The notes: generated by a model from the sequence alone, not told the origin. A stretch of 34,337 bases of DNA from Peloplasma aerotolerans (GCF_030012175.1 NZ_JASCXW010000020.1:1-34337); one strand, 5' to 3'; positions 13,907 through 32,786 are shown, numbered from the stretch's first letter. A program made the numbers and translations.

Positions 13907-15214
13907 ATGGACCCTATTTTACTCAAATATAAGTACAGAGACATCTTGGCCATTGCTGCGATGCAGGGTAAGGATGTCCATGAGAATGAACTGAATAAAC
14001 TTTCAAACCTCAAAGCGAATCGAGAGACTAAACTCACGATTCAGTCCATCTTTCAAACCTATTGGCCGTTATTTAAACCTTTGTTTATCGAAAGGCTTAG
14101 ACCTGCCATCATCTCTAATGTTGAAAAGATGATTGATTGTAAAAATTTAGCCAAAGGTCATCTTTTTTTTGAGTGTCCTTCTTGTGATCAGTATTACTTA
14201 CAAGGACTTTCTTGTCACTCAAGGTTTTGTGTCTCCTGTAATCAACGCTATCGTGAAAAGCGAACACTTGCCGTTCAGTCAAAACTTTTAGATGTTCCTC
14301 ATCGTCACTTTGTCTTTTCCATAGCTAGAGAACTTAGGGATTATTTTAGAATTTATCGCGGTCTCTTTGATGTGCTCTTTTCTTCTGTTAATGAAGCACT
14401 TCAAGCACTTGTCTTTTCATCCAAGATTGCTGTAAAAGACGACCGTAGACTCGGCCTCATCGCCTTTTTACATACCTTTGGACGTGATCTCAAATTCAAT
14501 CCTCACATCCATGTCCTCGTTGCCGAAAGAACGCTTGATATTCATCAAAAGATGCGAAAGTTTTCTTATTTTCATTTTGAGAAACTCAGGCTCCACTTTC
14601 AACTCGCTTTGCTTAGAAATATCTCAAATTATTTGAAAGTAAACGCTCCTAAAGATGTCTATCATCACTTCAATCGTTTGAGAACCTTTCTTATCGCTAA
14701 ATATAAGAAAGGATTCTATGCGCACGGTCCTCAACTCAAGGACTATGGTATCCTCAACTCTGCGAAAAAGGTTTCTGATTATATCACCCGCTACGCTTCT
14801 CGTCCTGCTATTTCTGAGGAAAGAATTGTATCGCTTGATCCTTCCAATCATCATATCACATGGTTTTACGATCCCCATGAGGATGACCATAAATCCAAAG
14901 ATGACACCACCTATCTTGGTAGGCAGACTATCACCGAGCATGTCTTTCGCTTCATCGCTAAACTCATCATTCACATTCATGATCGTAACTTCCACACCAT
15001 TCGCTATTTTGGTTTCTATGCCAATAAATCCTCAAAGTCTAAATCTTCCTTCAAAAAACTGCTTTCCTCTGCTCATATTAAACTTAAACGCTCAAGACTA
15101 AACTGGCTCTTTATGTTAAAATCTATTTATAAGTACCATCCCATTTTATGTTCATGTGGCCACACCATGAGACTCAATTTAGATTTCTCTTACTTTAGAG
15201 ATCCTGGAGGTTAA
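13907..15214 (+). CDS. IS91-family HUH transposase
   Basis: A 435-residue rolling-circle transposase. Residues 90-111 hold the zinc-binding N-terminal motif (CPSCDQYYLQGLSCHSRFC). The HUH metal motif is NPHIHVLVAE, with His200 and His202. The tyrosine motif is YITRY (Tyr292 and Tyr296, the YxxxY spacing of Y2 enzymes). The C-terminus has a second Cys pair in LCSCGHTMRL. All key residues are present and the frame is intact, so it may be active. No good ribosome binding site stands before the ATG at 13907; TATAAT lies 16 bases upstream. Its last two codons (GGA GGT) form the ribosome binding site of the next gene, so the two are coupled. Confidence 0.88.
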   Translation: MDPILLKYKYRDILAIAAMQGKDVHENELNKLSNLKANRETKLTIQSIFQTYWPLFKPLFIERLRPAIISNVEKMIDCKNLAKGHLFFECPSCDQYYLQGLSCHSRFCVSCNQRYREKRTLAVQSKLLDVPHRHFVFSIARELRDYFRIYRGLFDVLFSSVNEALQALVFSSKIAVKDDRRLGLIAFLHTFGRDLKFNPHIHVLVAERTLDIHQKMRKFSYFHFEKLRLHFQLALLRNISNYLKVNAPKDVYHHFNRLRTFLIAKYKKGFYAHGPQLKDYGILNSAKKVSDYITRYASRPAISEERIVSLDPSNHHITWFYDPHEDDHKSKDDTTYLGRQTITEHVFRFIAKLIIHIHDRNFHTIRYFGFYANKSSKSKSSFKKLLSSAHIKLKRSRLNWLFMLKSIYKYHPILCSCGHTMRLNLDFSYFRDPGG

Positions 15215-17139: not shown

Positions 17140-17832
17140 TTAATCGTTTAAGGAAAAATCAACAGCTGCTTTAACTTGAATTTCCATTGTATTAAATAAT
17201 GGAATATCTAAATCTTGCTGCCGGATTAACATAGGAATCTCTGTACATCCTAAAATAACGCCTTGAATACCTTTTAATTTTGCTTTGTTGATAACCTCTA
17301 TGAACTTTACTTTGCTCTCATTGCTAAATATCCCTAATATAAGTTCATGATAAATTGTGCGATGTATCATTGCTTGGTCCCTAATATCAGGTACAATAAC
17401 AGATACATCTTGATGACTGAAAATATTGGGATATAAAGTACTTTTCATCGTATAAATAGTTCCAACCAGTAAAACATTTGTTAAGTCTAGATATTTAACT
17501 TGATTCAAAGTTGCTTTCGCAATGTGAATAAGAGGTATCCCTACTTGTTTTTCGACTTCATCAGCAACAATATGCATCGTGTTTGCACAAATGAGTAAAA
17601 TTTCTGCTCCACTTTCTTTTAGTTTTTTCCCATGATTAACCAATTGCTGCGTTATTTCATCCCACTTATTTTGTTCCAACAATATTTCTAGCTCATGATA
17701 ATCAAATGAATACATTAAAATTTTCGCGGAATGAGACCCACCTAATTGTCTTTTGACTTCTAAATTAATCAGTCGATAATATTCAAGCGTTGATTCCCAA
17801 CTCATACCACCCAATAAACCTATTGTTTTCAT
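17140..17832 (-). CDS. Aspartate/glutamate racemase family protein
   Basis: A 230-residue protein of the Asp/Glu racemase superfamily (RacX/YgeA branch), PLP-independent enzymes that use two cysteines. The N-terminus MKTIGLLGGMSWEST is the family signature. Cys82 in ICANTMH and Cys196 in LGCTEIP are the expected acid/base pair. The frame is open to an ATG at 17850, but the ATG at 17832 has TGAGGT in front and matches the usual start. Such proteins may racemise aspartate or other amino acids; the substrate cannot be told. It is transcribed alone between the terminators at 17084 and 17884. Confidence 0.82.
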   Translation of the reverse strand: MKTIGLLGGMSWESTLEYYRLINLEVKRQLGGSHSAKILMYSFDYHELEILLEQNKWDEITQQLVNHGKKLKESGAEILLICANTMHIVADEVEKQVGIPLIHIAKATLNQVKYLDLTNVLLVGTIYTMKSTLYPNIFSHQDVSVIVPDIRDQAMIHRTIYHELILGIFSNESKVKFIEVINKAKLKGIQGVILGCTEIPMLIRQQDLDIPLFNTMEIQVKAAVDFSLND

Positions 17833-17871
17833 ATTTAACCTCATATTCATCTTTAGTCATATTATATCATG

Positions 17872-19632: not shown

Positions 19633-20664
19633 TTAAATGAGTAAGTGACTAAATGCATTAAACAAATAACCCATCAATAATATACCAAAAGTTATAATTC
19701 CAATAAACATTAATAGTAGTTTTGTTTTAACAACTTTTTTAATCATAATCATTGAAGGTAATGATAATGCAGTAACTGCCATCATAAATGCTAATACTGT
19801 TCCGATACCTACACCTTTAAAGACTAACGCCTCAGCAATCGGTAATGTTCCAAAAATATCTGCATACATTGGGATTCCAATAATGGTTGCTATGACGACT
19901 GAAAAAGCATTATCCTGCCCAAGTATTGCTGAAATCATTTCTTCAGGTATATATCCATGAATAACTGCACCAATACCAACACCAATAATAATATATAGCC
20001 AAACACGTTTAATAATCATTTTGACTTGATCTATTGAGTAACCGACTCTCTGTCTTTTGGTCATTACTTCTTCTTCGTACTCTAACTCCGTATCTTCCTG
20101 ATTTCTTGTTTCTAATACAAAGCTTTCAACATAGCGTTCCATCTTAAAAAAACTAATCAATGTTCCTCCAATTACTGCTATAATCAGTCCAACGACGACA
20201 TAAGCAATCGCAACCGTCCAATTAAAAATGCTTGCTAGTAATATCACAGAAGCTAAATCAACTAATGGTGAAGAAATAAGAAAAGAAAATGTAACACCTA
20301 TTGGTAACCCAGCTTTCGTAAATCCGATAAAAATTGGAATAGATGAGCATGAGCAAAATGGTGTGACAGTTCCAAGTAATGCACCTGTAGCATTGGCTCC
20401 AATCCCTGTTTTACCTTTTAAAATTCTTCTTGTTCTTTCTGCTGAGAAAAAAGATTGTAAATACGAGGCTATAAAGATTAGTACTGATAATAGCAATAAA
20501 ATCTTAATCACATCGTATACGAAAAAACTAACACTGCTAAATAAAAGTGACTCTTTATCCATTTTTATAACATCACCAAAAAACCACTTAACGAGGTCAT
20601 CAAGCCATACCATTTTAAGAAATTGATCGTTCAGCCATACAAAGATGTTTTTTATGTATTGCAT
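19633..20664 (-). CDS. DUF318/ArsP-type permease
   Basis: A 343-residue membrane protein of the DUF318 (UPF0718) permease family, which includes ArsP, an exporter of trivalent organoarsenicals. About eight to nine membrane segments are visible. The signature GTVTPFCSCSSIPIFIGF is at 98-115, with Cys104 and Cys106. A charged cytoplasmic stretch of about 30 residues (METRNQEDTELEYEEEVMTKRQR region, about 172-205) splits the two halves. The start overlaps the arsR stop by 13 bases, so translation is coupled. The context supports metalloid export, but the substrate (methylarsenite, arsenite or another) is not settled. Confidence 0.82.
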   Translation of the reverse strand: MQYIKNIFVWLNDQFLKMVWLDDLVKWFFGDVIKMDKESLLFSSVSFFVYDVIKILLLLSVLIFIASYLQSFFSAERTRRILKGKTGIGANATGALLGTVTPFCSCSSIPIFIGFTKAGLPIGVTFSFLISSPLVDLASVILLASIFNWTVAIAYVVVGLIIAVIGGTLISFFKMERYVESFVLETRNQEDTELEYEEEVMTKRQRVGYSIDQVKMIIKRVWLYIIIGVGIGAVIHGYIPEEMISAILGQDNAFSVVIATIIGIPMYADIFGTLPIAEALVFKGVGIGTVLAFMMAVTALSLPSMIMIKKVVKTKLLLMFIGIITFGILLMGYLFNAFSHLLI

Positions 20665-20939
20665 ACTTCCTCCATGTTTTTTAGATCAGATAAGAATTGA
20701 ATCAAATCGTCTATCTTTTTTTTGTCGACAGTATGTTTGTTCCAAACACCATCTTTATGTGCTTTTGTCAAACCAACGTCAGTCAATATTTTTAAGTGAT
20801 ATGACAGTGTTGGTTGAGTGATTGTTAATTTATCTATCAAAGTACAACCACACGTTTCTCCTTTGACAAGCAATTCTAATATTTTTAGACGATTCTCATC
20901 TGATAAAGCTTTAAAAAGTAAAGCATAATCTTTATACAT
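20652..20939 (-). CDS. arsR: ArsR family metalloid-sensing repressor
   Basis: A 95-residue winged-helix repressor, first gene of the operon. The metalloid site is Cys30-Gly-Cys32 in GETCGCTLID, the ArsR1-type position; Cys93 near the C-terminus may be a third ligand. The recognition helix is ITQPTLSYHLKIL (about 40-52). The frame is open to a GTG at 20948, but the ATG at 20939 has GAGGTG six bases upstream. It should repress its own promoter (20993-21021) through the ATCTAT-type repeats at 20961-20992 and release on arsenite. Confidence 0.92.
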   Translation of the reverse strand: MYKDYALLFKALSDENRLKILELLVKGETCGCTLIDKLTITQPTLSYHLKILTDVGLTKAHKDGVWNKHTVDKKKIDDLIQFLSDLKNMEEVCNT

Positions 20940-20960
20940 ATTAAACACCTCTTTATATAT

Positions 20961-20992
20961 ATCGATATCTATCTATATAGACAACTATCTAT
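20961..20992 (-). promoter_or_regulatory. ArsR operator region
   Basis: A cluster of ATCTAT/ATAGAT units directly downstream of the -10 box. It includes the perfect palindrome TCTATATAGA (20972-20981) and a second ATCTATAT at 20987-20994. ArsR-type operators have this AT-rich ATA-repeat form. Confidence 0.7.
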
Positions 20993-21021
20993 ATTATAAA
21001 AGACTATAAAAGATATGTCAA
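20993..21021 (-). promoter_or_regulatory. Perfect consensus promoter of the ars operon
   Basis: Minus strand: TTGACA (21016-21021), exactly 17 bases, TATAAT (20993-20998). It is the only fully consensus promoter in the window, as suits a gene set kept off by a tight repressor. Confidence 0.9.
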
Positions 21022-21031
21022 GATATTTATA

Positions 21032-21077
21032 GATAAAAAATAAAAAACTTACTGAATGCTCAATAAGTTCTTTGTTG
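21032..21077. repeat. 46-bp direct repeat, left copy (terminator hairpin)
   Basis: Identical over 46 bases to 26470-26515; the flanking base differs on each side. It contains the hairpin AACTTA...TAAGTT (21046-21069, inner TGA/TCA), followed on the minus strand by a T-rich run. It sits just upstream of the ars promoter. The right copy is the terminator of the cysteine desulfurase gene, so this copy is probably derived from it. Confidence 0.9.
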
Positions 21078-21618
21078 CGTGATGCTGATTTTTTTGATAC
21101 AGATTATAGCATATACATTTTTTAAGAGCTTTAAATGAAAGTTGATTAATGGAAAACATGTATAAATATAATTGATTTAATTATTTTGGATAATATGTGT
21201 CCAATAAATAATGTCCATTTTACTTCATCTTTAATAAATATGTTCTCACATACCTGCTGCGTTGAAACAACTATATTGCTTGCAAAATCAACCTTGTGTG
21301 TATCAAAGAAACATTAAAATCAGCCAAAATATGTTTCCCCTTACATGGTTAGACAGGTTGCTAAAATACCGAAGAAACATATTTTTGAGTTGTTACCTTG
21401 AAGTCATCTAGTTTAAACACCATTGCTGATTATTCACAACAAAAATAATCAATAGGGTTTAAATCCACTTTACTGGACTGGGTTGTGTAACCTATTCTAA
21501 TACAATTACGCACCCTACAGAAGATTTTACGTACCCCTTAAATATGTCTCAGTTAAGACGTTTTGTTTTTGAGCCTTCTTTCAAATAGTAATTTATTAGT
21601 GCCAAAATAGGTGATCTG
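21078..21618. other. Non-coding stretch with long inverted repeats
   Basis: 541 bases with no credible gene on either strand. Two structures stand out. A 12-bp perfect inverted repeat AAAATATGTTTC (21326-21337)/GAAACATATTTT (21374-21385) spans 60 bases. A nested pair TTTAAAC (21412-21418)/GTTTAAA (21457-21463) encloses GATTATT (21428-21434)/AATAATC (21444-21450). It may be a structured RNA, a replication or recombination site, or the remains of a lost insertion sequence. No coding remnant is recognised. Confidence 0.5.
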
Positions 21619-21999
21619 CTAACTATTAATTACTACTTTGTTATACAAACCGTATGTAAATAAAATAATAAGTTGGTTAGAAAACAAAATTGATAAATCA
21701 ATCAATGCAATTATTTCATATTCTATAAAAAATATAAGTATGAATGAAAGAATAAGTACAAATAGTGAAAGGATTTTAGAGTATACTAATAAGACAAAAT
21801 ACAAAATTGGAATTTTTTTTCTAAATCTTGGTATGGTAAAAATTTTTGCCATCTGTTTATTCTTGATAACTATAGTTGGAATTTTTTTTTCGTCTGAAAC
21901 ACTTAATAAGTCACTTGAATTAATTAAAGAAGTATTAACAGAAAAATATATTCCGATAATAGAAACACTAACAAAAATTAATAGTAAATATATATTCAT
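21619..21999 (-). CDS. Hypothetical membrane protein
   Basis: A 126-residue protein I do not recognise. It has an N-terminal membrane segment (IYLLLIFVSVSIIGIYF), a polar basic middle with KKIPTIVIKNKQMAKIFTIPRFRKK (about residues 38-62), and a long hydrophobic C-terminal half, about two further segments. ATG at 21997-21999 is preceded by GGAG at six bases; an earlier in-frame ATG at 22011 overlaps that GGAG. A plus-strand frame of similar length overlaps it but lacks a binding site. It is the last gene of the minus-strand cluster in the island. Confidence 0.45.
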   Translation of the reverse strand: MNIYLLLIFVSVSIIGIYFSVNTSLINSSDLLSVSDEKKIPTIVIKNKQMAKIFTIPRFRKKIPILYFVLLVYSKILSLFVLILSFILIFFIEYEIIALIDLSILFSNQLIILFTYGLYNKVVINS

Positions 22000-22036
22000 A
22001 ACTGTCTCCATTTCATATAAATTGTTCTACAATTTT

Positions 22037-22195
22037 TTATACTACGTTTTCAATATTGTTCACTACAGTTGCGGTTGTAAAAATTCTTGTAATTTCATTA
22101 CTCATAGCAGTAGATAAATTATGCATAGTTCTTGTGTATGCACCCTTTGCTTTAACTAAAACTGACTCTACTTCTGAATTTTTAATGGTTAGCAT
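22037..22195 (-). CDS. Possible 52-residue protein
   Basis: A short frame seven bases after the stop of the 22203-22520 gene, in the same direction. It begins MLTIKNSEVESVLVKAKGAY, is polar and predicted helical, and ends NNIENVV. No good ribosome binding site is present, so it would depend on coupling to the gene before. The start (SEVESVLVKAKGAY...) vaguely recalls the helical small proteins that travel with LXG toxins, but it is only half their length. It may be a remnant. Confidence 0.3.
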   Translation of the reverse strand: MLTIKNSEVESVLVKAKGAYTRTMHNLSTAMSNEITRIFTTATVVNNIENVV

Positions 22196-22202
22196 AATTC
22201 GT

Positions 22203-22520
22203 TTATGTTTTTCTTATTATTTCTATTATAGTAATCCTATCCCAAATTTGCTTAAGAGTATATTTTTTTCCTTTTCCTAAACTAAACAATTTGTAAGATT
22301 GATTAAATTTACTTAAAAAACAAACACTTTCGGTTTTATCAGGTACAGGATCTATACAAATTCGATTCAACTCATTACCATTCTTTAATACATCGGTTTC
22401 TCTATATAACTTACATAATCTGTAATGAGTATAATTATTAATTGAAAAAATGATTTCTAATATCTCACCATTCTCAATTTGTTCAATAGCCTTAATATAA
22501 TCTAATGTATTTATTTCCAC
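22203..22520 (-). CDS. Hypothetical protein
   Basis: About 105 residues, soluble, mixed alpha/beta, not recognised. It starts VEINTLDYIKAIEQIENGEILEIIFSI, has two Cys (LCKLYRE and RICIDPVPD), and ends ITIIEIIRKT. The frame is open to a TTG at 22535 without a binding site. The GTG at 22520 has GGGG seven bases before it and is preferred, though weakly. It lies 29 bases after the previous gene. Size and setting would fit an immunity or accessory protein of the island; nothing in the sequence proves it. Confidence 0.45.
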   Translation of the reverse strand: MEINTLDYIKAIEQIENGEILEIIFSINNYTHYRLCKLYRETDVLKNGNELNRICIDPVPDKTESVCFLSKFNQSYKLFSLGKGKKYTLKQIWDRITIIEIIRKT

Positions 22521-22549
22521 TATGTAACCCCGCAATTTTATATTTTGTA

Positions 22550-22957
22550 TTAGCGTAGTTTAGATTCCACCATATTTAGCAACACATCTAAATCAAAATC
22601 ATTATACTCATTTCTTATTATAGAGTTATCTACTTCTTCAGGATTACAACCAGCTAAATAAAAGCAAACTTCATAATGGTCCTTAAAAAAATCTAATCCA
22701 GCATTCTTATTTTTAACGCGCAGACTAATTTGTAGATCGATATCATCACTTCTAAGTTTATCCACATAAACTTCTATGAGTTCAAAACTGTATTTTTGTA
22801 GAAGCACTTCTAATTCACCAATAACATATAATCGTAGCAAGTGTGTCTGTTGATTACTTTTGATATTAACGGTCCTCAAATATTCCTTTGCTTTGTTTTT
22901 ACCTAAAAAAGTATTTTTTTGTGTTTTTTTATAAATAGTGCCATGACTATTCCTCAT
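22550..22957 (-). CDS. Hypothetical protein
   Basis: A 135-residue soluble protein, not recognised. The N-terminus is very basic (KKTQKNTFLGKNKAKEYLR), followed by a helix (THLLRLYVIGELEVLLQKY) and an alternating strand pattern (IEVYVDKLRSDDIDLQISLRV), ending in an acidic DFDLDVLLNMVESKLR. The ATG overlaps the end of the preceding gene by 11 bases (ATGAGGAATAG), so it is translated by coupling and the two products may work together. Confidence 0.5.
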   Translation of the reverse strand: MRNSHGTIYKKTQKNTFLGKNKAKEYLRTVNIKSNQQTHLLRLYVIGELEVLLQKYSFELIEVYVDKLRSDDIDLQISLRVKNKNAGLDFFKDHYEVCFYLAGCNPEEVDNSIIRNEYNDFDLDVLLNMVESKLR

Positions 22958-23846
22958 TTTTTAATGTTTCGTTAAATCTATTAAAGTAATCAATTGATTC
23001 CAACAATTCACTTCGATTATTAACATTGCCCATAATAAAAGCGATTTTTTTATTCTTATAATATAGTCTTGTGTCATCTGGATGCATCAATCTTTGCGAA
23101 ACTGTATAAGTGATATGTTTCATATCATATGCTTTTTTAATCCCAAAAATCGTTGTTTTAGTTAGTATACCATCTTTAAATACTATTTTCCAGTTAGCCA
23201 TATATATAAATAAAAAGATAGTAATCATATGAAAAGTTAACGATATAAAAAATCCGGTTGATAAACCTTCATCTACATAAATGCTAATCGTTGGGATAAA
23301 AATGATCACAAGTGATGCAATAGGCAAAAACCATAATCCTTGAATGGGCTTTAAAACATTTGTTACGCTTTTAACTATTTTTATATTATTATTTTTTTGA
23401 TAGGTTCTGATTGCTTTATCTAGTGAACGATAATTATCTTGTAAATAGGATATAGAAAAGATACGTTTGTTATCAATGTAAAATCTATATCCTGAACTCA
23501 CATCCCTAGATTCAATATGATCATATGCTATCTTTCTCGTTTTTTTAAGGGCGGTTGTATATTTACAATACGAATCAAAAACTTGAACTTTCCAACGAGC
23601 CATATAAATCGATAGACAAATAAAAGCAATTATGATCCCAGAGAAAAAAATGAATACGAAGACTATATCTGATTGATCAATTAAATCTGGTATAAAAATG
23701 AATACTCCAAATAATATACCAAAAAATACAAATCCAATTATTGGAAAAACTATCCAAGACAATGGATAGACTATTGTATTGCTATTGTTATCTGATGATT
23801 TTCTTCTAACTAAAATACTACTCAATATTCCGCTTAACCAATTCAT
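22947..23846 (-). CDS. Membrane protein with duplicated TM + PH-like unit
   Basis: A 299-residue protein made of two similar halves. Each half has two membrane segments, then an IYMARWKV.../IYMANWKI... strand, a KKTRKIAYDHI.../GIKKAYDMKHI... turn, and a short helix at the end. The halves span about residues 24-155 and 165-295. The soluble parts look like small bacterial PH-like domains behind membrane helices; I cannot name the family with certainty (possibly DUF6560-like). AGGAG at six bases fixes the ATG. It heads a compact cluster and may be membrane-sensing or stress-related, which is a guess. Confidence 0.55.
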   Translation of the reverse strand: MNWLSGILSSILVRRKSSDNNSNTIVYPLSWIVFPIIGFVFFGILFGVFIFIPDLIDQSDIVFVFIFFSGIIIAFICLSIYMARWKVQVFDSYCKYTTALKKTRKIAYDHIESRDVSSGYRFYIDNKRIFSISYLQDNYRSLDKAIRTYQKNNNIKIVKSVTNVLKPIQGLWFLPIASLVIIFIPTISIYVDEGLSTGFFISLTFHMITIFLFIYMANWKIVFKDGILTKTTIFGIKKAYDMKHITYTVSQRLMHPDDTRLYYKNKKIAFIMGNVNNRSELLESIDYFNRFNETLKNEE

Positions 23847-23945
23847 GGTATTCTCCTAAAAATTTTATAAATATTAGACCAACCCACATCCATCTAGTAC
23901 CTTTTGTTATAATTATACTTAATTATCATAATAAATGATAGATTA

Positions 23946-24803
23946 CTATTTTAGCATTGCTTGAATAAAAGAATCTTTTAGTGGTTCAACCAATATTTTG
24001 GGTTTATCTGAAAAATAATCAGGACCCGATCCTAACAGATTTATTTCCTTGCTAATCGCTAATTGAATGATTTTTTTTGCTTTATCTTGCGGGATTTTGA
24101 AGCCTAAAATAATGGATTTTGGTTTGATACTTATTGTCAATGTTTTACCTTGTTTTGTCCCTGGGTATACTTTTTCGGGGAAATAATTAGGTATCATTTA
24201 GCGCCACTCTTTCTCATATGACCATTCAAGAGCTTTTGTGTAAAACATTAGCCTTTGCTGCTTCTTAAATGAATCACCATCAAGCCTTATCTCACTGTAT
24301 TTTAAATCGTTATAATCCACTGGCTCTCCATACTTTGAAACTAGATTGTGTGCTTTAATTAGTTCATCAGATATATCTGCACGATACTCTGAATAGTCGA
24401 CCTTTTCTAGCATCGGACCACGTTTCAAAATAGTATCTGGTATATTAAACATTCCTTTATGTTTCAAATTAAGAAGGTGGTTCTTTGCTGCTTCTAATAG
24501 TTCACTTGCATCATACTCGAAGATGGCACCTTTATAAAGATTACCATAATGTGCCCACATGATGTTACTCTGATTGTCTTCACTAAAGCAAGTAATTAAT
24601 GCAGAATCTTGTATTGCTGAGTCTCTTAAGTTTCTAAAATAATTGCTATAGATTTTAAATTTGTCATTAATCGTTTGTGTGTTATCGCTTAGAGATTCAG
24701 GTAATTTCATTCCGTTTTTTTCTATATGAGACCTTAAAATAATGTTGAATACATCTACGGAATAAAATGGCTGGTAGAGGAAAGGGGATATGAACCCTAA
24801 TTC
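23946..24803 (-). pseudogene. DUF2971 gene, 5'-truncated and interrupted by an in-frame stop
   Basis: A 170-residue frame (ATG 24710) carries the DUF2971 core: ALITCFSEDNQSNIMWAHYGNLYKGAIFEYD at about 38-68, then ending LEWSYEKEWR. A TAA at 24198-24200 stops it. The very next codon is ATG, and the same frame goes on for 83 residues with the DUF2971 C-terminal pattern (ISIKPKSIILGFKIPQDKAKKIIQLA). The usual sequence after EWR is Leu, so TTA-to-TAA is the likely mutation. Upstream of 24710 the frame stays open and protein-like to 24803 without a start, so the N-terminal part is lost. Readthrough or restart at TAAATG cannot be excluded. Confidence 0.75.
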
Positions 24804-25183
24804 TTATTAAAAATTGCTTAAATTTTCCCCACCTAATTGACTCATTTATTTTCTATATTATAGCATATTTTGCAATCAAAAATTAAGATTCCAAATTTTT
24901 AATTTTCATTGTCTAATATTTCAACCGTCTTTTATAAGAAAAATAGACGTTTTTTATACAATTTCGATGATTTTAGTAGCTGTTAATATGAAAAGCCATG
25001 TATCAATTGGACTAGACTTATTAGTTTTCAAGTCTCATATTCTTATTTTATACTCTAGTTAAGCCATTTTATTTCCATGTTCAATCTTGGACACCATTAT
25101 TGGAAATTTGGAATTCGAACTGTTTTTTTATTTTTGATCTCATTTTTATTTTCAAACAATATAATTAGATGAGGTGAATTTAA
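24804..25183. other. Non-coding region before the IS3-type transposase
   Basis: 380 bases without a gene. It holds a plus-strand hairpin with T run (CGTCT 24926-24930/AGACG 24945-24949, then TTTTTTTAT), an AAAATTAA/TTAATTTT dyad about 24880-24908, and, near 25086, TTGGACACCATTATTGG. The last is weakly similar to the inverted sequence after the transposase gene (ACGACCATCTAACAATTT) and may be the left insertion-sequence end. Confidence 0.45.
24926..24957 (+). terminator. Possible plus-strand terminator upstream of the IS
   Basis: A five-base stem CGTCT/AGACG with inner T-A pairs, followed by seven T. No plus-strand gene precedes it. It could shield the transposase gene from outside transcription. 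Confidence 0.4.
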
Positions 25184-26437
25184 ATGAGAAAAAGAAAAAC
25201 AAGTGAACAAAAGGATAAAATTATTTTATCTTATCAGAATGGCCAGAAAGTAGAAAAACTTGCAAAACATTACAAATTAAGTCGTAGTATTATCTATTTA
25301 TGGATTAGTGGAGTGAAAAAGATTTATACACTTAAAAAACATCATTCTATTGATTTCAAAAACGAAGTAATCCAAAAAATACAACAAGGCTCAAAAATTT
25401 CAGAGATTTGTGAATTATTTAAGTTGAGTCAATCAACAGTTTATCATTGGGTAAAAACAATTGATATAAATCCTAAAAAAACAACGCAAACAAAAGTTAT
25501 TGAAAAAGTGAAATATGATCTAATACTTCAACTGTTCAAAACGTATTCAATAACCAATTCCATGACTATTAAAGAAAGAATAGCTTTAATTACTCATAAT
25601 AGTAAGTCGTACACTATTAAACTTTTATGTGAGTTGTTTGATGTCAACAGATCAACATATTATAATTATATCAATCATCAAACAACGCCACAATTAGAAA
25701 GGGATATTCTATTAAAGAAAGAGATATCTGAAATCTATAATAACCACAAAAAAATAGCTAGAGCAGCAAAAATTAAGGTCCTTCTTCAAGAACAAAACCT
25801 AACTGTCAGTGAGAAAAAGATAAGATTCCTAATGACTGAACTTGGTATCCAATTCACAAAGAATAAATACACTAAAAAATATCGTCGCCCAAGAACTTCT
25901 GTAAAATACCAAAACATACTAAAGCAGGACTTTAATCAACCAATCCCAAACAGAGTATGGGTAAGTGATACGACAGAAATCAAGATTAATTACAAACCCG
26001 TTTATCTTTGTGTCATCATGGATCTTTTCTCACGCAAAGTAATCTCTTATGAGTTAACCAAAGTTAATAATACAAGATTCACACTGAATACATATAAAAA
26101 GGCTGTAATCTATAGAAAAACTCACCCAATGATTTTCCATAGCGATAGAGGTGTTCAATACACTTCAAAACTTTTTAGAACATATTTACAAAATAATGAT
26201 GTTCTACTTTCGTACAGTGCTGTTGGATACCCTTATGACAATGCAGTCATGGAATCATTTTTTTCACATTTCAAAAGAGAAGCTGTATATCCTAAATACC
26301 CGTTTTCGACAATTCAATCATATAAAACAATTATTGAAAACTATATTGATTATTACAATAGACTAAGACTTCATCAAGGTATTGGAATGATAACACCAAA
26401 TTTAAAAGAAGGATTGTATCGAAAAAGTAATCGCTAA
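25184..26437 (+). CDS. IS3-family transposase (single fused frame)
   Basis: A 417-residue transposase. Two helix-turn-helix units lie at the N-terminus (about 8-42 and 57-91). An HTH_21-like linker region follows (ERDILLKKEISEIYNNHKKIA...), then an integrase core with DDE residues Asp262 (VWVSDTTEI), Asp321 (FHSDRGVQY) and Glu357 (NAVMESFFSHFKRE). The last two are 35 residues apart, as in IS3/IS150 members. Most relatives use two frames joined by a -1 frameshift; here one frame covers both parts. AGGTGA six bases before the ATG fixes the start. It is intact, but exact element ends and a target duplication were not found. The right end would be within 30 bases of the 46-bp repeat. Confidence 0.85.
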   Translation: MRKRKTSEQKDKIILSYQNGQKVEKLAKHYKLSRSIIYLWISGVKKIYTLKKHHSIDFKNEVIQKIQQGSKISEICELFKLSQSTVYHWVKTIDINPKKTTQTKVIEKVKYDLILQLFKTYSITNSMTIKERIALITHNSKSYTIKLLCELFDVNRSTYYNYINHQTTPQLERDILLKKEISEIYNNHKKIARAAKIKVLLQEQNLTVSEKKIRFLMTELGIQFTKNKYTKKYRRPRTSVKYQNILKQDFNQPIPNRVWVSDTTEIKINYKPVYLCVIMDLFSRKVISYELTKVNNTRFTLNTYKKAVIYRKTHPMIFHSDRGVQYTSKLFRTYLQNNDVLLSYSAVGYPYDNAVMESFFSHFKREAVYPKYPFSTIQSYKTIIENYIDYYNRLRLHQGIGMITPNLKEGLYRKSNR

Positions 26438-26469
26438 ATTGTTAGATGGTCGTTAAAAGGTTAACTTGC

Positions 26470-26515
26470 GATAAAAAATAAAAAACTTACTGAATGCTCA
26501 ATAAGTTCTTTGTTG
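26470..26515 (-). terminator. Cysteine desulfurase operon terminator = right copy of the 46-bp repeat
   Basis: On the minus strand AACTTA...TAAGTT (26484-26507) with inner TGA/TCA pairs is followed by TTTTTTATTTTTTAT. It lies 19 bases after the nifS stop, the natural terminator of that operon. It is identical to 21032-21077. Confidence 0.9.
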
Positions 26516-26533
26516 TTTATCAATTTTGATTAT

Positions 26534-27670
26534 TTAATTTTTGACTTCTTGATAACTACTAATAATACGATCTGCAATATCATCAATATCTTTGGATTCA
26601 TTGTGAATTCCAAATGTTATTCGAATGGTTGCGTAATGATTATCTAATTTGATTGCTTCTAAAACATGTGATTTTGTAATTGATGTTGAAGTACATGCAC
26701 TGCCAGTTGATACATATAAGTCTTTTGCGTCTAGTGCAAATGCTAAATCATGACTATTACAATTGGAAAACGATAAACTCAAATGCCCTAATAAGCGATT
26801 GTTGCCGATGTCTGCTCCATTTAATCTTAAATTCGGAATAGCTATCCTCAACTTAGAATAAAGTGCTGTAGCAAGCATATCAATATGTCTAGGATAAGTA
26901 TCTATTTTCTTTTTAACAAGTTCACAAGCTTTAGCAAATCCAATAATACCATAGACATTTTCTGTACCAGCACGATACCCATTTTGCTGATTCCCGCCAT
27001 CGATGAGCGGCTTCAACTCTAGTCCTTCTCTAACATATAAAACCCCGCTACCTTTTGGTCCATAAAATTTATGTGCTGATAAAGATAATAAATCAATTTT
27101 TAATTTTTCTAGATCGATTTCCATTTGCCCAAACATTTGAACAGCATCAACATGCAGTGTTACATGATGCTTTTGACATATTTCAATGATTTCATCAATT
27201 TTTTGAATTGTTCCAATTTCATTATTTCCCCATATGATAGAAACCATGAGTGTATCATCATTGATAGCTTGCTCTAAATCTTCTTTAGAAATAAACCCTT
27301 TTTCATCGACAGGTAGATAGATGACTTCATAGCCTATTTCCTCCATAGATTTGCATGTATGCAGTGTTGCATGGTGTTCTATTTGTGAAGTTATTATTCT
27401 TTTTTTATTTAAATGGGCTTGTGCAAATCCTTTGATTGCCCAATTGGTTGCCTCTGTTCCCCCAGAGCAAAAAAAGACCTCTTTTCCATCTGCATTTAAT
27501 GCGTCAGCAACCGTATGTTTAGCTTGCTGGATTGCTTTCCTTACAGCAATACCATCTTTATGAATTGATGATGGATTCGCATATAAATCTTTCATATATA
27601 TAGACATTTCGTTAAATACTTCTGGATCCAAAGGTGTAGTCGCAGCATAATCTAAATATATCTTTTTCAT
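26534..27670 (-). CDS. nifS: Cysteine desulfurase (NifS/IscS type)
   Basis: A 378-residue class V PLP aminotransferase-fold enzyme that takes sulfur from cysteine for Fe-S clusters or thiolated tRNA. It has IYLDYAATTPLDPEV at the start, SGGTEATNWAIKG near 69-81, EHHATLH near 98-104, the PLP lysine Lys201 in SLSAHKFYGPKG, and the sulfur-carrying Cys326 in STGSACTSTS. The short, fixed SACTS region and length fit group I (NifS/IscS). No IscU or other cluster gene is adjacent. Its ribosome binding site GGAGG is inside the last codons of the 97-residue gene before it (3-base gap), so the two are coupled. Confidence 0.93.
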   Translation of the reverse strand: MKKIYLDYAATTPLDPEVFNEMSIYMKDLYANPSSIHKDGIAVRKAIQQAKHTVADALNADGKEVFFCSGGTEATNWAIKGFAQAHLNKKRIITSQIEHHATLHTCKSMEEIGYEVIYLPVDEKGFISKEDLEQAINDDTLMVSIIWGNNEIGTIQKIDEIIEICQKHHVTLHVDAVQMFGQMEIDLEKLKIDLLSLSAHKFYGPKGSGVLYVREGLELKPLIDGGNQQNGYRAGTENVYGIIGFAKACELVKKKIDTYPRHIDMLATALYSKLRIAIPNLRLNGADIGNNRLLGHLSLSFSNCNSHDLAFALDAKDLYVSTGSACTSTSITKSHVLEAIKLDNHYATIRITFGIHNESKDIDDIADRIISSYQEVKN

Positions 27671-30154: not shown

Positions 30155-30556
30155 TTATCTTAATTGTAGAGCATCTTTTCCATATTCCATAAGTTCTATC
30201 GGATTTCCATCAGGATCATTTACCCAACACTGATAATTATTGTCAAGTCCTAGGATGACATCATGTGTTAACTCTATCCCTTTTGAAACAAGAGCTTTAG
30301 CAACCTGTTTTATGTTTATAACCTCAAGACACAAATGTTGGTATCCAGTTACGTTAGGTTGATGAACTAATGTTTCATGTGCATAAAACAACTCAATAAA
30401 CTGGTCTTTTGAGACTTGTAAATAAACAATCCATGGATTTCCTTGATCATCGTTTAATGTGAATTTCTTTCTAAAACCAAATGCTGTTTCATAAAACTCA
30501 ATTGATTTTTCCATATCTGAAACTTGAAAAGCTAAATGTGCAATACCTTTTATCAT
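30155..30556 (-). CDS. VOC family protein (glyoxalase I-like)
   Basis: A 133-residue protein of the vicinal-oxygen-chelate fold, made of two beta-alpha-beta-beta-beta units. The metal quartet of glyoxalase I is present: His7, Glu55, His74 and Glu121. The sequence starts MIKGIAHLAFQVSDMEKSIEFY and ends VNDPDGNPIELMEY, both classical. It could be a lactoylglutathione lyase or act on other metabolites; low-GC Gram-positives often lack glutathione, so the substrate is open. CGGAGGT precedes the ATG. Confidence 0.82.
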   Translation of the reverse strand: MIKGIAHLAFQVSDMEKSIEFYETAFGFRKKFTLNDDQGNPWIVYLQVSKDQFIELFYAHETLVHQPNVTGYQHLCLEVINIKQVAKALVSKGIELTHDVILGLDNNYQCWVNDPDGNPIELMEYGKDALQLR

Positions 30557-30641
30557 AATGACCTCCGTTATTTTTATTTACATCTATTATACACCTTGTA
30601 ACCATATACATTAAAGCATCTACAAAAATAATGAAAATCCA

Positions 30642-30650
30642 TGATATGAT
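30642..30650 (+). promoter_or_regulatory. Extended -10 promoter element before the flavoprotein gene
   Basis: TGATATGAT is an extended -10 about 34 bases before the ATG at 30684. No good -35 is seen. Confidence 0.45.
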
Positions 30651-30683
30651 AGTGGTAAAGGTTTTATATTTAAGGAGAAATTG

Positions 30684-31907
30684 ATGGTATATGATGTTAT
30701 CGTTATTGGTGGAGGACCTGCTGGTCTTATGGCTTGTAACGTACTTGAAAAAAATAAAATCAATTATTTATTACTTGAAAAAAATAGTACACCTGGAAAA
30801 AAACTCTTAATTACAGGTGGAACGAGATGTAATGTCACCAATCGTTTATCGATTGATGAATTTATTGTTTCTCTAAATTTCAAACATAAAAAATTCATGT
30901 ATCCTGCATTAACTTTTTTTAGTTCAAATGATATTATTTCTTATTTTAAGAATAATGGATTGAAATTGATTTTAGAAGATGATATGAAATATTTCCCAGA
31001 AACCAATAAGAGTTCAAGTGTTCTAGAGGTTTTGCTATCCAATATAGATAAAAAGAAAATGAGAACCAACCAAGCAGTTATAGAGATTGAAAAACAAAAT
31101 GATATTTTTAGATTGCATACTAAGGATTTTATATTTGAAACGAAGCATGTTGTGGTTGCTACAGGTTCTAAAAGTTATCCTCAAACTGGAAGTACGGGTG
31201 ATGGCGCTGTTTTTGCTGAGCAATTAGGCATTGAAGTGATTCCATTCACACCAGCAGAAACACATATTTATGCCTCTGATGTTATTAAGTATTATAAAGA
31301 TCTTCAAGGTGTTTCTATTTCAAACATAACAGTTAAAATTAATGGTACCAAGATAAAAACTACTGGAAGTTTGATTTTTACCCATTTCGGTTTAAGTGGT
31401 CCAGCTATCCTACATCTATCAGAAGATATTTATCGTGAGATATTAAAAAAACCTACAACTATATCTTTTAATCTTGTAAAACAATCTGTTAATGAACTAC
31501 ACGATGTAATCAATAAAGCAAGCGATCAAAATATGCATATCCTAAAAACTTTAGAACAACTAACAACAAAAAGATTGTCAAGAAAAGTTTTAGATATCCT
31601 AAAAATTGAAAATATTAGAATTAAAGAATTATCAAATAAAGACATTAACAACATCATTAATATCTTAACAAACTTCACTGTTCCAATTGATCGTGTTGAA
31701 GATAGAGAAAAAGCGTTTGTAAATGCTGGTGGTGTTGACACAAAAGAATTGGATCCCAAATCTATGGAATCCAAAAAGGTTAAGAACTTATATTTTATTG
31801 GAGAAACAATTGATCTTCACGGTCCAATAGGGGGATATAATATTACCATTGCATTATCAACAGGTAGATTATGTGCGACAGATATTATTCATAAATTATC
31901 ACAATAA
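30684..31907 (+). CDS. BaiN/HI0933-type FAD-dependent oxidoreductase
   Basis: A 407-residue flavoprotein of the HI0933/YhiN/BaiN family, annotated elsewhere as NAD(P)/FAD-dependent oxidoreductases or aminoacetone oxidases. An N-terminal FAD-binding motif is VIVIGGGPAGLMA, followed by the family mark PGKKLLITGGTRCNVTN near 39-55. VVATGSKSYPQTGSTGDG near 155-172 and the C-terminal LYFIGETIDLHGPIGGYNITIALSTGR complete the FAD site. AGGAG lies six bases before the ATG at 30684; a TTG three bases earlier is unlikely. The natural reaction is unknown in most relatives. Confidence 0.85.
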   Translation: MVYDVIVIGGGPAGLMACNVLEKNKINYLLLEKNSTPGKKLLITGGTRCNVTNRLSIDEFIVSLNFKHKKFMYPALTFFSSNDIISYFKNNGLKLILEDDMKYFPETNKSSSVLEVLLSNIDKKKMRTNQAVIEIEKQNDIFRLHTKDFIFETKHVVVATGSKSYPQTGSTGDGAVFAEQLGIEVIPFTPAETHIYASDVIKYYKDLQGVSISNITVKINGTKIKTTGSLIFTHFGLSGPAILHLSEDIYREILKKPTTISFNLVKQSVNELHDVINKASDQNMHILKTLEQLTTKRLSRKVLDILKIENIRIKELSNKDINNIINILTNFTVPIDRVEDREKAFVNAGGVDTKELDPKSMESKKVKNLYFIGETIDLHGPIGGYNITIALSTGRLCATDIIHKLSQ

Positions 31908-31908
31908 A

Positions 31909-31939
31909 AAACAGTTTTATTCAAACTGTTTTTATTTTT
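31909..31939. terminator. Bidirectional terminator between the flavoprotein and degV genes
   Basis: AAACAGTTT (31909-31917) and AAACTGTTT (31923-31931), then TTATTTTTA on plus and an A/T run for the minus strand. It lies between convergent genes. Confidence 0.82.
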
Positions 31940-31940
31940 A

Positions 31941-32786
31941 TTAAACGATTCTAGCTACATAAGCAAACATTTCAGGACCTGTATGAATGCCTAATACAGG
32001 AGTTAATGCTGAAATAGCAAGATTTCTAACATCTAAACTTTTAGAAAGCATATCTCCTAATTGTTGTGCTTTTTCTGGATCATCACCATAATGAATGGTT
32101 AAATCAATTTTGTGTCCACTAAACTTTTCAACGAGCAATTCTTTCATGTTGATGAGAGATCTTTGAAGCCCGAATGCTTTTGATAATGTAATATAAACAC
32201 CTTCATCATTTACAGTAATAACTGGTTTAATTCTCAAGATGTTACCAATCGTTCCTTCAACTTTACCAATTCTTCCGCCTTTGCGTAAGTACTTAAGTGT
32301 GTTGATTGTATAAATTGCCATACTTTCTTGAAATCTTTGTTGATCAAGTTTTTTAATAATATCCTTGATTGCAACTTTCTTACTAACCAATTCCAATGCT
32401 TCTTCAACTAAATAACCTTGAGCACTCCCTAATGTCTTCGTGTCATATTGTGTAACATTGATACCTTTGACTTCTTCAATCGCTAAACGGAACGCATTAA
32501 ATGTTCCTGATAATCCAGAAGAAATATTGATGACTAAAACATCAGTATAATCTTCTTTTTTAAGTTTCTCAATAACTGCTGTGAAATCATCCATATTGGG
32601 TAAACTTGTTGTTAAATTGTGTGTATCAATTTTTGAGTAAACTTCTTCCGCTGTAATTTCAACTTGGTCGCGAAAGCTTTTTCCATCCACTAAAATCATG
32701 AGAGGGATTACGTGTAAATTTGGGTGTTTCTTAATAAAATCTTTTGATAAGTTGGATCCTGAATCAGTAATAATTGCTGTTTTCAT
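31941..32786 (-). CDS. DegV family fatty-acid-binding protein (FakB-like)
   Basis: A 281-residue DegV-family protein; relatives called FakB hold a fatty acid for phosphorylation by FakA before it enters phospholipid synthesis. Signatures are IITDSGSNLSKDF at the start, the TSLPN loop near 59-63, and ISSGLSGTFNAFR near 86-98, whose serines bind the carboxylate. The C-terminus HTGPEMFAYVARIV is typical. AAGGAG precedes the ATG. Its promoter is TTGACA/TATGCT at 32871-32900. FakA is not in the window. PlsC nearby fits the same lipid pathway. Confidence 0.88.
   Translation of the reverse strand: MKTAIITDSGSNLSKDFIKKHPNLHVIPLMILVDGKSFRDQVEITAEEVYSKIDTHNLTTSLPNMDDFTAVIEKLKKEDYTDVLVINISSGLSGTFNAFRLAIEEVKGINVTQYDTKTLGSAQGYLVEEALELVSKKVAIKDIIKKLDQQRFQESMAIYTINTLKYLRKGGRIGKVEGTIGNILRIKPVITVNDEGVYITLSKAFGLQRSLINMKELLVEKFSGHKIDLTIHYGDDPEKAQQLGDMLSKSLDVRNLAISALTPVLGIHTGPEMFAYVARIV

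Follow-up and report, generated by a model that had tools for sequence, protein, structure and literature searches.

A duplicated terminator bounds accessory DNA between nifS and ars

The window analysed here, 34,337 nucleotides of Peloplasma aerotolerans (NZ_JASCXW010000020.1:1-34337), is one contig of a draft genome of 88 contigs. Between its cysteine desulfurase gene nifS and its ars operon lies an accessory frame of ~5.4 kb whose genes are ill-assorted and partly broken, and direct repeats of 46 bp are present at both limits of this accessory DNA. The reading that we favour, with evenly divided confidence, is that the frame is an insertion scar from recombination at a transcription terminator between nifS and ars. 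As an integrase-less islet with direct repeats the frame is ordinary in kind; its unusual detail is the nature of the repeat, a terminator that has kept its hairpin at either end.

A repeat search of the window showed that positions 21032-21077 and 26470-26515 match at 46 of 46 bases with a start-to-start distance of 5438 bp, and that the adjacent bases differ at either end (left A/C, right C/T), as a first, sequence-only reading of this DNA had described. The same search yielded no second comparable pair in the window, and exact repeats of this length are expected by chance at <1e-16. The two copies are the only ones in the 2.04-Mb draft genome, even at up to three mismatches, and a 34-bp core of the repeat, searched for in 20 genomes of the genus, occurs twice in the window genome, once in its nearest relative, G040, and in no other. 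These counts exclude a dispersed element, and with it the concern of the sequence-only reading that the 46 bp might be a common dispersed sequence. Its claim that the repeat frames accessory DNA is likewise borne out by the interior content described below.

Read on the minus strand, the repeat forms a hairpin of 14 pairs with a T-rich run after it (-12.8 kcal/mol, z = -5.5). The right copy, T (26470-26515, minus strand), stands directly after minus-strand nifS, whose stop codon is at 26534-26536, and the left copy, T' (21032-21077, minus strand), directly upstream of the ars promoter; hairpin and positions thus support the proposal that T is the terminator of the cysteine desulfurase operon. 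The G040 copy of T is the same bar one gap in 46. The G040 orthologue of T' is ~85% identical to the nifS terminator and carries two stem changes, both of which keep pairing, and its hairpin is intact and still folds (-10.9 kcal/mol). A stable hairpin, a T run and conserved pairing, the marks of an intrinsic terminator, are therefore all present, and the persistence of the hairpin in the G040 T' despite stem changes fits a maintained terminator function. From its sequence, T' would stop minus-strand cargo transcripts ahead of ars, and both copies may have been retained because each is predicted to stop transcription, one at the exit of nifS and the other at the exit of the cargo before ars. 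The suggestion that terminators on both sides protect the neighbouring operons thus stands as regards the hairpin, which both copies can form, including the diverged G040 T', and is a prediction as regards protection.

No known RNA family was found within the frame. A duplication longer than 46 bp that takes in the nifS 3' untranslated region was considered and rejected, being suggestive in G040 only and not significant. Two other relatives, G027 and G028, have a sequence resembling a hairpin ahead of ars, which is at most a weak candidate for the ancestor of T' and is absent from closer relatives.

Both junctions recur in the nearest relative

In G040, contig C29 (L124) carries ars, T' in the same position, the same spacer, the noncoding modules R1 and R2 that follow in the window and a homologue of one cargo gene, and contig C23 (L033) carries a DUF3800 gene, a mimic of the tRNA-Ser 3' end, the transposase, T and nifS. 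G040 thus has both terminator copies together with cargo unlike that of the window, on two unjoined contigs. The presence of both junctions in G040 indicates that the duplication is older than the species split. It also bears on whether the repeat could be an assembly artefact in which identical stretches from a metagenome were mis-joined. The window, as a single contig of a draft, would allow such an error, but the contexts of both junctions are found again in G040, which was assembled independently and whose terminator copies are not identical, and we regard an artefact as highly improbable.

T' of the window and T' of G040 differ by ~4 substitutions and, in addition, by indels. If the two window copies had diverged freely, the probability that all 46 sites still agree would be ~0.001 for a divergence of 15% and 0.008 for one of 10%, so that either strong constraint or later exchange is required, and G040 shows that change is tolerated. 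The perfect match between T and T' in the window probably reflects later homogenisation, not recent insertion, as judged from these comparisons. The restored identity is consistent with excision by host recombination.

Exchange between the two lineages is apparent at the right end of the frame. Window and G040 are 93-98% identical from within the transposase gene (25184-26437) through T to ~26592, a tract that includes the nifS 3' end (26516-26592), and an identity scan placed the break 77 bp past the right copy, beyond which identity drops to 75-83% across the nifS body and the next gene. Only 1 of 19 codons in the nifS tail differs from G040, against 178 of 359 elsewhere in the gene (p = 7.5e-5). 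This sharp drop inside nifS indicates that transposase, terminator and nifS tail were exchanged as one tract. A second high-identity tract at 30472-31971, in the region of an HI0933-like flavoprotein (93-99% versus roughly 75-88% nearby), indicates that exchange is not restricted to the island.

The following sequence of events would account for these observations. In the ancestor of the window species and G040, nifS, its terminator and the ars promoter would have been joined. Foreign DNA carrying the transposase block and a copy of the nifS terminator would have entered this join by terminator-terminator recombination, most simply through a single crossover by ordinary homologous recombination, which would leave one terminator at each end. 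The interior has turned over afterwards, as the other cargo in G040, the broken DUF2971 gene and the missing serine recombinase show, and the transposase, the terminator and the last 57 bp of nifS were swapped between the two lineages as one tract. T and T' would have become identical in the window later, through gene conversion or a cycle of excision and re-integration, and both may have been kept as transcription insulators, the hairpin being maintained in both. Homologous exchange is preferred to an integrase because no integrase is present, no such repeat was found around related units and the exchanged tract crosses the terminator.

Several observations weigh against this insertion scenario. 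No empty nifS-terminator-ars site was found in the genomes searched. Contigs C29 and C23 of G040 are unjoined with no end overlap, and a single island there is deduced from two contig ends. The exchanged tract accounts for how closely the T copies of the two species match, so that the age argument depends on the G040 T'. Finally, a homologous crossover might leave nifS sequence next to T', and the flank similarity is not significant (p 0.05 to 0.6).

Position of ars and nifS in relatives

The nifS gene (26534-27670, minus strand; gene call and profile match) lies on the right of the frame. On the left, the ars promoter TTGACA...TATAAT (20986-21023, minus strand) was read as a sequence motif; it precedes arsR (20652-20948, minus strand), the first gene of an operon that encodes ArsR, an ArsP-type permease, a thioredoxin-like protein, an arsenite-type transporter and ArsC and extends to 17910. 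A racemase gene (17140-17850) comes after arsC. Downstream of nifS in G031, G043 and G038 are an oxidoreductase, an epimerase-like gene and an Asp/Glu racemase, and in G044 an oxidoreductase and then the contig end. The racemase after arsC in the window places ars and island together in the stretch that other genes occupy in relatives.

In four genomes (G031, G043, G038 and G044) ars lies behind a CBS-domain gene, and in G027 and G028 beside gcvT (in G028 as judged from upstream sequence). No ars gene was near nifS at any of 17 other nifS loci, within the stretch fetched. Compared with closer relatives, the ars locus is homologous from the ars promoter as far as the edge of T'. It is plausible from the sequence that nifS, terminator and ars promoter adjoined one another before the island arrived, the arrangement that the sequence-only reading obtained by removing one repeat period; the empty join that it proposed to look for in relatives was not encountered in the genomes searched, ars being unlinked to nifS in all other relatives checked.

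These positions can also be read differently: the second terminator could be a local duplication, or could have come with ars when it moved beside nifS, and act only as an insulator unrelated to island movement. The location of ars elsewhere in all other relatives checked implies that ars was moved or acquired in the window, the end of ars-locus homology at T' fits such a move, and the hairpin conserved in G040 fits an insulator. However, the copies lie exactly at both outer limits of the accessory DNA in two species, where a random local duplication would not have to fall, and we consider this explanation unlikely.

Attachment-site explanations and known systems

Related composite modules occur on contigs C183 of G038 and C35 of G027, where a serine recombinase, R1, R2 or an R2-like sequence, minus-strand cargo, the tRNA-Ser mimic and the transposase follow in the same orientation. 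The serine recombinases are intact (572 and 585 amino acids) and lie upstream of R1. The window island shares the order from R1 to transposase and lacks the recombinase gene, and from this shared order it looks like such a unit minus its recombinase. A terminator repeat framing these units was not found, the G027 contig ending near the recombinase and G038 having more accessory genes leftward; the 46 bp are therefore not an obligatory element end.

The modules raise the possibility that the whole unit owes its insertion to a large serine recombinase with the terminator as its attachment site. R1 follows an intact recombinase in G038 and G027 in the order and orientation of the window, but the copies of the recombinase examined adjoin unrelated genes and no such repeat is seen in either genome. 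Serine recombinases, moreover, normally leave a very short shared core, not 46 bp. We judge this origin very improbable.

According to another explanation, the 46 bp are a true attachment site at which a tyrosine integrase acted on the nifS terminator, its gene having since been lost or residing in trans. The restoration of the terminator on both sides fits this idea, as in tyrosine-integrase islands and prophages at gene 3' ends, whose direct repeats of tens of bases restore a 3' end or terminator; an identity of 46 bp is a typical length for attachment-site repeats. Five proteins encoded elsewhere in the genome exceed the phage-integrase cut-off, three of them clustered on contig C34. Unlike such islands, however, the frame has no integrase, none was noticed in the two G040 contig ends, and attachment role and mobility are only candidate properties here. 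Nor was the terminator repeat found around the G038 and G027 modules, and the 46-bp sequence with other cargo, which the sequence-only reading had proposed to look for, occurs in G040, on its two unjoined contigs, and nowhere else in the 20 genomes. We find the attachment-site role that this reading assigned to the repeat doubtful. Profile searches of the frame detected no cognate integrase gene, tyrosine or serine, in accordance with the same reading, and only an IS3-family transposase, which it had not mentioned. Literature directly relevant to terminators as integration sites was not found.

The homologous insertion that we favour has its closest precedent in the H47 island of Escherichia coli, likewise a small chromosomal island with no site-specific recombinase of its own and with direct repeats at its ends (PMC5426353). 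The H47 repeats measure 148 and 144 bp and match imperfectly, no shared block exceeding 20 bp; for this island empty sites are known, and excision independent of RecA has been detected (PMC5426353). The window island agrees with this integrase-less, repeat-framed type in having no recombinase gene and direct repeats at both ends, and differs in that its repeat is a perfect 46-bp terminator and that neither an empty site nor a circle is known for it.

The transposase (25184-26437, plus strand; 417 amino acids) is a DDE transposase of the IS3 family by its score of 278.8 bits against NCBIfam profile NF033516 (cut-off 160). It departs from that family in being encoded in a single frame, in having one full-length copy per genome and in its lack of detected terminal inverted repeats or short target duplication, the repeat search of the window, with a minimum length of 25 bp, having listed none. 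Its identity is 94% to the copy in G040, 86% to those in G038 and G043 and 69% to that in G027, and similarity among copies stops at or just past the stop codon. IS3 elements make target duplications of ~3-5 bp, and the transposase therefore cannot have made the 46-bp repeat directly. A target duplication was excluded by length and by the lack of such a repeat beside the other copies in G038 and G027.

A more speculative reading, which we think improbable, is that the terminator hairpin is a reusable recombination site, where cargo enters or leaves via duplicated terminators by host or trans-acting enzymes. Each event would then leave both neighbours insulated, and the two copies would be kept identical.

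Composite interior of the frame

From the comparisons above, the island is a composite of parts with their own borders. A spacer of 180 bp (21078-21257), ~85% identical to that in G040, adjoins T'; in G038 and G027 the serine recombinase is on the matching side of R1. R1 (21258-21478, plus strand) is a conserved noncoding module whose left border is sharp in many genomes. R2 (21479-21540, plus strand) was recognised by cross-genome comparison as the end of a dispersed element; it contains an imperfect palindrome, TGGGTTGTGTAA...TTACGCACCCTA, and many copies carry additional TACGCACCCC repeats. Dozens of R2 copies occur across 14 genomes, several of them directly outside terminators that resemble the one after a tRNA-Leu gene in G044 (L069). 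The proposal that R2 marks the terminus of a known insertion-sequence family was rejected, since inspection by eye recognised no transposase beside the copies examined. The left noncoding region was also considered as a transposase block that had been inverted and had decayed, and this idea was dropped because the match is no better than with shuffled sequence.

The cargo open reading frames (ORFs) are on the minus strand and have no known common function. They encode proteins of 130 amino acids (21619-22011; no family in profile searches), 110 amino acids (22203-22535; no convincing family in profile and defence-model searches) and 135 amino acids (22550-22957; a homologue at 50% identity in the G040 island), and a 299-amino-acid membrane protein with DUF6560 (22947-23846), which has a weak relative in the G040 island. 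A DUF2971 gene (23946-24710, minus strand) is present as two ORFs that match separate parts of the candidate-defence model PDC-S31. It is broken at both ends, with the N-terminus missing and the frame open up to a junction near 24772. A known defence system in the cargo was rejected, only the broken DUF2971 gene convincingly matching a candidate-defence model. A search of viral contigs gave no match. A link of 32 bp, conserved in G040, runs from the transposase stop to T (26438-26469).

An IS91-type (Y2) transposase of 435 amino acids is encoded at 13907-15214 in the window. In another locus of G027 (C45, L209; minus strand, ~7820), a 286-bp direct repeat (86%) with a terminator hairpin inside adjoins R1; it recurs 2.5 kb apart around cargo and is an independent terminator-bearing repeat that frames genes.

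A tRNA-Ser mimic at the cargo junction

The left end of the transposase block, which cargo abuts, is a 26-bp copy of the tRNA-Ser(GGA) 3' end that includes CCA and has two mismatches (24772-24797, minus strand). The block starts with the same copy in G040 (L033, 1788-1813), G038 (L216, 9564-9589) and G027 (L132, 6883-6908), as an exact or near-exact match, and in all four species the mimic is abutted by unrelated cargo. The cargo is different in every case, with a DUF3800 gene in G040 and an ABC-transporter-like set in G027, and without exception it abuts the mimic. The end of R1 (21454-21476) is also tRNA-Ser-3'-like and inverted relative to the copy at 24772, which places the cargo between two tRNA-end mimics in inverted orientation to each other.

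The mimic is likely an attachment-site relic or decoy, and it is a better candidate for an attachment site than the 46-bp terminator. Serine recombinase gene pairs were observed near the true tRNA-Ser 3' end in G031 (C3; L215, 6927-10665) and G037 (C57; L214, 6518-11060). The tRNA-Ser 3' end as a genus-wide integration hot spot is suggested by these data.

Implications for gene turnover

The tRNA-Ser mimic beside the transposase is the more promising lead on how cargo is loaded in this genus. For the terminator repeat, a sister species in which both junctions are present and diverged makes the case testable. Should terminators act as short homology arms, islands could insert between operons and leave their neighbours undisturbed, which, if true, would help to explain gene turnover at operon borders.

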